From positions 391,001 through 455,000 of the forward strand of contig CP126121.1 of NCBI GenBank assembly GCA_030123625.1: a DNA stretch of 64,000 nucleotides, given 5' to 3'. The translations under genes and the position numbers were made by a program. Shown piece after piece: positions 26,551 to 64,000 of this stretch; the stretch's first letter is position 1; every line of letters starts with the position of its first letter. This DNA comes from Nitrospira sp. (GTDB lineage Bacteria > Nitrospirota > Nitrospiria > Nitrospirales > Nitrospiraceae). Below the pieces are notes generated by a model. It was not told the origin of the DNA, made no database searches, and was given only the letters and a program-made list of their open reading frames with translations.

Positions 26551-26657
26551 GCAGTGCTGAGTTAACGGTGCCGAGTGCTGAGGCGACATGCAGTCTTGAG
26601 CAATCTCACCAAGCTTATCGTTTAACGCAGAATTCAGCACTCCCGACTCAGCACTTC
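26551..26657. repeat. GTGCTGAGT-family palindromic repeat before tRNA-Arg
   Basis: Left arm CAGTGCTGAGTTAACGGTGC then CGAGTGCTGAGG; right arm TTCAGCACTCCCGACTCAGC with a matching GTTTAACGC. The inverted arms frame a spacer of about 45 bp and end 9 bp before the tRNA. Confidence 0.8.
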
Positions 26658-62880: not shown

Positions 62881-64000
62881 TTAGTAGACTGGGCAAGCAG
62901 CCGTGTGCCGTTTTGATAATACGGCTTGTTCAATGGCGTGACACAACGCGTCAACGGCGCTCTCTTTCGTCAAATAGGCGAATGCGCCGGCCGCTTTCAT
63001 TTTTTGTTCCGTATCGGCCGATTGATTCACCGACAGGCCGATGACGACGGTAGCCGGATGATTCGCCTTGATCTGCTGCGTCGCTTCAATCCCATCCATC
63101 TTCGGCATATCGATGTCCATCACCACCACATCCGGATCGAGCCGCTTCGCGAGTTCGACCGCTTCCATCCCGTCGCCCGCTTCCCCGACAACTTCGAGAT
63201 GATCATACGCCGTCACGATGCTTCGCAAGCCTTGCCGCATCATCGGGTGGTCGTCCACCAGCAGCACACGGATTTTCGAGTGCTGCCGGAGTGCTGAGTC
63301 CTGAGACTTGAGTGCTGAGTTTTTTCCGGACAACTCGGCACTCAGCACTTTATTCTCGGCACTACTTCGGATCGGCAACGCCAACGTCGCCGTGGTGCCT
63401 CGTCCGGGAGCGGACTGCACGTCGAATGTGCCCCCTAGCGCGCGCATGCGTTCTTGGATGCTGAACAGCCCGAACTTGGACGAAATGCCTCCACTAGGTG
63501 TCCCAGCAGCAGCAGCAGCAGCAGCAGCAAGATCAAAGCCTACTCCTTGATCGCTCACCTCGATTCGCAACTGTCCGTCATACCGTTCCAGCCGAACGTC
63601 GGCTTCCCTGGTCCCCGCATGTTTGGAAGAATTGATCAGGAGTTCTCGAACCGATTGAAACAATAAGACGACCTGATCTTCCGGCAGTTTGAGATCGTCC
63701 GTTTCGGGCACGGTCACCGTCACGGTGATCTGATGCTTTTTCATGTACTCGCCCAGCCATTTCAACCCGGCCATCAACCCGTGATCGCGCAACACCGGGG
63801 GGCTGAGATCCGCCACCAAGGTGCGCGTGTAGGTGAGTGCCTCCGATAAGATGTCGTCCATCTTTTTCATCACATCAAAGCAAGCCGGCACGGGGGCAGC
63901 CGCCCGCTTGCCTTGGCCCACGAGGAGCCTGCCGAGTACCAAGGTCTGCTGGAGATGATCGTGTAATTCGGTAGCGAGCCGCTTGCGTTCCCGTTGCTCC
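62881..64000 (-). CDS. hybrid histidine kinase with C-terminal receiver domain (5' part outside window)
   Basis: The frame is open to the right edge, so the 5' part of the gene is missing. Read from the edge, it begins with an H-box like RKRLATELHDHLQQ, the NarX/DegS-type HisKA_3 site. An HATPase domain follows with RELLINSSKHA, DQGVGFD and GLFSIQERMRALGG. A receiver domain (VDDHPMMRQG, phosphoacceptor Asp in VVMDIDMP, Lys in YLTKES) ends the protein without an HTH. The linker between (ENKVLSAELSGKNSALKSQ then DSALRQ) is encoded by a GTGCTGAGT-family repeat, and an eight-Ala run sits inside the HATPase domain. Confidence 0.88.
   Translation of the reverse strand, partial: EQRERKRLATELHDHLQQTLVLGRLLVGQGKRAAAPVPACFDVMKKMDDILSEALTYTRTLVADLSPPVLRDHGLMAGLKWLGEYMKKHQITVTVTVPETDDLKLPEDQVVLLFQSVRELLINSSKHAGTREADVRLERYDGQLRIEVSDQGVGFDLAAAAAAAAGTPSGGISSKFGLFSIQERMRALGGTFDVQSAPGRGTTATLALPIRSSAENKVLSAELSGKNSALKSQDSALRQHSKIRVLLVDDHPMMRQGLRSIVTAYDHLEVVGEAGDGMEAVELAKRLDPDVVVMDIDMPKMDGIEATQQIKANHPATVVIGLSVNQSADTEQKMKAAGAFAYLTKESAVDALCHAIEQAVLSKRHTAACPVY
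63288..63363. repeat. GTGCTGAGT-family palindromic repeat inside the kinase-receiver gene
   Basis: Left arm GGAGTGCTGAGTCCTGAGAC then GAGTGCTGAGTTTTTT; right arm CTCGGCACTCAGCACTT then CTCGGCAC. The inverted arms are in frame and translated as the interdomain linker; they have the same arrangement as intergenic copies. Confidence 0.85.
63505..63528. repeat. (AGC)8 microsatellite encoding eight alanines
   Basis: Eight perfect AGC triplets (GCT on the coding strand) lie in the HATPase domain of the kinase between DQGVGFD and the GLFSIQERM motif. A change in number would keep the frame. Confidence 0.95.

Follow-up and report, generated by a model that had tools for sequence, protein, structure and literature searches.

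How does a palindromic repeat of intergenic type come to be translated as the linker between a histidine kinase and its receiver? The window, by which we mean the whole 64,000-nt stretch of Nitrospira DNA analyzed here (contig CP126121.1, positions 391,001 to 455,000), ends inside a gene that raises this question. An initial annotation had described a complete two-armed repeat at 63288-63363, in frame between the HATPase and the receiver, and had proposed either that it was inserted into a permissive linker or that it fused a kinase gene to a downstream regulator gene. Of these two proposals, insertion into, or replacement of, a permissive linker is supported, and fusion is not. We consider it probable that a copy of a dispersed heptanucleotide hairpin repeat of Nitrospira inserted into, or replaced, a pre-existing flexible linker of a hybrid kinase that was already fused.

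The heptamer hairpin and its host gene

The repeat is present where it had been annotated, as a two-armed hairpin element of AGTGCTG heptamers at 63290-63363, recognized by its inverted arms, heptamer cores and RNA fold. On the plus strand, AGTGCTG-type heptamer arms face each other across a short loop; one pair of arms (63297-63320 with 63340-63363) is 79% complementary and a second pair (63290-63305 with 63334-63349) 88%, and the RNA of the linker strand folds with -36.0 kcal/mol. The heptamers are repeated in tandem, with excess identity at lags of 7, 14 and 21. In the window, AGTGCTGAGT occurs nine times against 0.05 expected, with three of the nine copies belonging to the 63290-63363 element. 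Genome-wide, GAGTGCTGAGT is found in 50 copies, compared with 4 for the reversed control, and the exact core marks about 35 genomic loci, the window element among them. Complete elements average 82.5 nt (n=26) and range from about 60 to 110 nt. The AGTGCTG core is enriched in the genus and near background in sister families.

Other copies lie outside genes. One, at 26553-26655 of the window, is found immediately 5' of an apparent tRNA gene. At two pairs of paralogous intergenic sites (L031/L037 and L011/L018), the flanks are conserved and the hairpin loops differ, which suggests fast loop turnover.

The host gene is on the minus strand, where 62881-63999 is the 3' part of a gene for a 1976-aa hybrid histidine kinase, delimited by its open frame and Pfam domains and extending beyond the window to about G000:C1:459811. 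A single open frame of 1994 codons (1976 aa from a GTG) contains the element in frame and crosses the window end. The protein comprises PAS, GAF, HisKA, HATPase and receiver domains, followed by a second kinase module (HisKA_3) and a C-terminal receiver. The description of a hybrid kinase with a repeat at its junction was correct, but the kinase is larger than could be seen from the window, and the repeat is present at each of its two kinase-receiver junctions. At the C-terminal junction, the HisKA_3/HATPase module (approximate limits 63373-63990, minus strand; HisKA_3 at aa 1608-1674 and HATPase_c_2 at aa 1709-1790) is joined to the receiver (Response_reg, PF00072; 62929-63267, minus strand, or G000:C1:453929-454267, aa 1849-1961) by a 33-aa linker, IRSSAENKVLSAELSGKNSALKSQDSALRQHSK, at 63274-63372 of the minus strand. 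Extracted as the sequence between the kinase (HK) and receiver (REC) domains, this linker is mostly encoded by the element, whose minus strand reads VLSAELSGKNSALKSQDSAL in frame within it. The other junction carries its own in-frame copy, SVLSAESSDLISSDSGTRHSGLRTQHS, at L009:6720-6798 (G000:C1:457719-457797).

Elsewhere in the C-terminal kinase module, a CAG/GCT triplet run at 63507-63530 of the window encodes eight alanines in the ATP-lid region. The orthologues L084 and L085, 98-99% identical to each other, have 11 and 7 alanines at this run, so it looks like a length-variable microsatellite.

Every AGTGCTGA unit contains a TGA, which moves to another frame from one unit to the next since the 7-nt length is not divisible by 3. 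The degenerate unit of the window copy (AGAATAA) is the one that would place its TGA in frame, and by inspection the corresponding unit is also degenerate in L084, L085, L079, L073, L091 and L093. Since a degenerate second unit is also present in some copies beyond kinase linkers (e.g., L013 and L268), the degeneracy may be a property of the element itself and not an adaptation. Read-through of the element is not rare, since 18 of the 26 complete elements can be read through in one or more frames (on average, 1.08 of 6 frames are open). Upon synonymous recoding of the window linker, the 7-nt periodicity is lost (z 3.4) and the hairpin is weakened (MFE of -36.0 versus -27.5; z -2.05); the pattern in the DNA thus goes beyond what is needed to encode the protein.

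Linkers with and without the repeat

The comparison covered 61 kinase loci from the genus, 59 of which had both kinase and receiver in the fetched DNA. The two domains are fused in frame in 58 of the 59, with linkers of 19 to 51 aa. Recognizable AGTGCTG arms are present in about 16 of the 59, a share that may be inflated because the homologue query included the linker, and the range of linker lengths is the same with or without the repeat. What had been annotated as a single case thus recurs across a kinase family. A tree built from the domains only requires at least 11 changes between repeat and no repeat, a rough count given that many branches are weakly supported. In one clade, L073, L091 and L093 carry the repeat, while L098, L100, L104, L108, L109, L115 and L116 have unrelated linkers, with identities of 85-91% in HK and 81-90% in REC. 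Within the genus, linkers bearing the same residues as the repeat also keep the DNA pattern, with the exception of the decayed L094 and L099.

Kinase linkers are not the only coding sequence that the element occupies. A P-type cation ATPase carries the AGTGCTG element in the loop between VTGEGYEPxGEIRE and LPPGLRDLL (L270, L271, L276, L279-L283 and L286; in the genome of the window, at L021:481-638, G000:C1:2371900-2372057). In other species, the same loop is short and repeat-free (L293 and L298) or holds another repeat-like sequence (L274). Judged from these sequences, the occupied loop shows that existing genes are entered by the element and that no gene junction is needed for this. Together with near-orthologous kinases that have the same domains and unrelated, repeat-free linkers, the ATPase bears out the proposed insertion into a permissive site. 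The further proposal that an intergenic-type repeat can become protein sequence appears to hold as well, both for the linker, where the element is in frame, and for the ATPase loop.

Linkers change rapidly in sequence: near-orthologues have unrelated ones, and those of diverged paralogues are sometimes near-identical. The window locus itself showed no clean-flank insertion with a target duplication, and the event looks like replacement or sequence turnover rather than simple addition, since linker lengths are about equal with and without the repeat. The element may have arrived by its own mobility or by template switching and may then have spread among paralogues through short-tract gene conversion. 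Copies in coding DNA would survive mainly in unstructured joints, in a frame free of the AGTGCTGA TGA. The linker would then serve as an unstructured tether of which no sequence-specific function is required, its flexibility allowing it to tolerate the element.

The AGTGCTG heptamer array is also found in Nostocales, Chloroflexi, Chlorobiaceae, Planctomycetota, Acidobacteria and Betaproteobacteria (L132-L250). Among the 134 repeat clusters of these other phyla, 56 fall in long open frames, and none precedes a receiver motif.

Probable recurrent colonization and its alternatives

In the genome of the window, in-frame copies directly before receivers lie at 454289, 457719, 483746, 2244293 and 2398440, making up five of about 35 loci; for comparison, 115 receivers times 120 nt amounts to about 0.3% of the genome. 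The element is thus strongly concentrated in kinase-receiver linkers, which form a hot spot for it. At a further locus of this genome (L019:501-511, G000:C1:2225861), the element follows a receiver and is itself followed by the broken start of a second one (RVLLVMTTSW).

The strongest case for a linker hot spot is another Nitrospira genome, G076, which has its own AGCGTTG element in 15 exact copies, with none in the 16 other genomes compared; the same exact search found no AGTGCTG copies in G076. Eight of the AGCGTTG copies lie in kinase-receiver linkers, two of these eight kinases have a stop inside the match, and the remaining copies include complete hairpins outside such linkers (L260, L264 and L268). 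Additionally, the 43 linkers lacking the AGTGCTG repeat show a lag-7 identity of 0.322 versus 0.261, for which the pooled z of 9.6 overstates the evidence because homologous linkers among the 43 are not independent. Taken singly, L075, L087, L104 and L106 have lag-7 z values of 4.5-7.9, and other heptamer hairpins occur in the linkers of L075 (ATGGTGA-like) and L087 (GAGGGCC).

These linkers bear on an alternative history, in which one ancient insertion into an ancestral hybrid kinase was followed by duplication, vertical descent and decay, with no repeated colonization. Several repeat linkers have in common a TCCGGAA loop core and a degenerate second heptamer, and the linkers of L009 and L084/L085 are orthologous. 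The loop core would fit one ancient insertion with gene duplication for part of the set. As an account of the whole, we find this history unlikely, since the G076 linkers hold a G076-specific element, other heptamer families occupy the same site, and the linkers of some diverged paralogues are more alike than their domains. In G076, third codon positions of L096 and L101 match at 98% in the linker compared with 60% in HK and 59% in REC; between L072 (from the genome of the window) and L110 (from G016), they match at 82% in the linker compared with 36% and 49%, respectively. Other paralogue pairs depart from this pattern: the codon alignment is poor for the linkers of L072/L088 and of L088/L110, whose frames are offset by an indel. 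Descent at the rate of the domains cannot explain L096/L101 and L072/L110; such high-identity linkers require either gene conversion or more than one arrival of the same element.

Mosaic hybrid kinases, in which HK and REC have different nearest relatives with a switch near the linker, were observed in several groups (L074, L077 and L099; L086 and L092; L095, L107 and L090; L129 and L130). The repeat might be a recombination site at which hybrid kinases swap receivers, as the mosaicism is clear at the junction: L074 is 93% identical to L099 in HK and 95% identical to L077 in REC, while L086 and L092 are 83% identical in HK and 55% in REC, and AU p values are 8.5e-5 for L086+L092 and 0.10 and 0.075 for two others. 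We think it improbable, to about the same degree as a single ancient insertion or slightly more so, that the repeat plays this part. Mosaics also occur with linkers that lack the AGTGCTG repeat (L107/L095/L090), and the informative sites of L074 switch downstream of the repeat, about 50-70 nt into the receiver. Receivers are indeed swapped at this junction, but in L074, the one case with a sharp switch, the breakpoint is within the receiver, and we rejected the repeat as the crossover point.

The annotated alternative, in which read-through of an element located between separate kinase and regulator genes joined the two, would account for its position exactly at the domain junction. It could also draw on L111 (G010:C23), the sole split homologue of the 59, whose HK and REC differ in frame and are separated by a degenerate repeat. 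L111 nevertheless groups inside the fused set on the tree, and this nesting suggests a later frameshift rather than an ancestral separate state. The comparison of orthologues that had been recommended thus did yield fused kinases without the repeat, but the separate state only as this out-of-frame linker. Most of the 58 fused homologues lack the AGTGCTG repeat, including L077 and L114, whose domains are fused by repeat-free linkers of 19 aa, and the element also sits within the ATPase loop, away from gene junctions. We rejected fusion by the repeat, which is very improbable given that the fused state exists without it. Equally hard to credit is selection on the amino acid sequence of the linker with the DNA pattern as a by-product, for although orthologous linkers keep similar residues (73% alike in L009/L084), linkers are less conserved than domains among orthologues and unrelated in some near-orthologues, and most repeat linkers lose their 7-nt periodicity upon synonymous recoding.

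Insertion into, or replacement of, an existing linker can be carried further, to linkers as the preferred home of each genome's resident element, actively homogenized and forming an exchangeable, genome-specific cassette that may tune signaling or speed its rewiring. We regard this extension as doubtful.

Similarity to known repeat families

Among the papers listed by a text search of the literature for the motif, all seem unrelated judging by their titles, and a search for Nitrospira kinases with such repeat linkers found no paper. Like REP/BIME sequences with RAYT, the Nitrospira element is short, palindromic, present in many copies and mostly extragenic. Unlike them, it is built of heptamer units and does not flank the genome's four Y1/RAYT-type (Y1_Tnp) genes; with no linkage to these transposase genes, mobilization by RAYT was rejected. 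While REPs are single palindromes of 20-40 nt and seldom coding, the Nitrospira elements are longer, at the mean of 82.5 nt for the 26 complete copies, with several copies in frame.

Heptanucleotide tandem repeats are known from cyanobacteria, Xanthomonas and Beggiatoaceae, and PMC4692102 and PMC4679880 describe 7-nt units that are dispersed and mostly intergenic, among which TAACTGA-like units can be read as protein in one of the two orientations (PMC4679880). The tandem 7-nt unit of the Nitrospira element, evident from the excess at lags 7, 14 and 21, resembles these STRR-like repeats. They are described as head-to-tail arrays, whereas the Nitrospira element consists of two short arrays facing each other as a hairpin, and its coding copies lie at a defined domain junction.

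The closest behavior is that of the Rickettsia palindromic elements (RPEs; Ogata et al. 2000, 2002, cited in PMC3767692 and PMC5896051), which are dispersed both between and inside genes, where they are in frame. Different RPEs are reported at the same insertion sites, with PMC3767692 leaving open whether this reflects a hotspot or a common origin. Similar to RPEs, the Nitrospira palindromic repeat is found both outside genes and in frame inside them, orthologues lack the insert at the same site (the short ATPase loops of L293 and L298 and the unrelated linkers of kinase orthologues), and different elements occupy the same site in different genomes. It differs in its heptamer units and its size of about 60-110 nt, compared with the 100-150 bp of RPEs, and it belongs to another phylum, is concentrated in one type of interdomain linker and is spread among paralogues. 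By analogy, the Nitrospira element works like an RPE, a likeness in behavior and not family membership by sequence.

Repeat DNA is apparently a recurring source of protein linkers in Nitrospira sensors; some relatives bear a repeat and others none, and the repeat at a given site can differ from genome to genome. The system makes it possible to ask by what means the elements move, what makes an interdomain linker tolerant of them and whether signaling is affected. As far as sequence comparison goes, it is a clear and naturally replicated case of an RPE-like protein-coding repeat outside Rickettsia.
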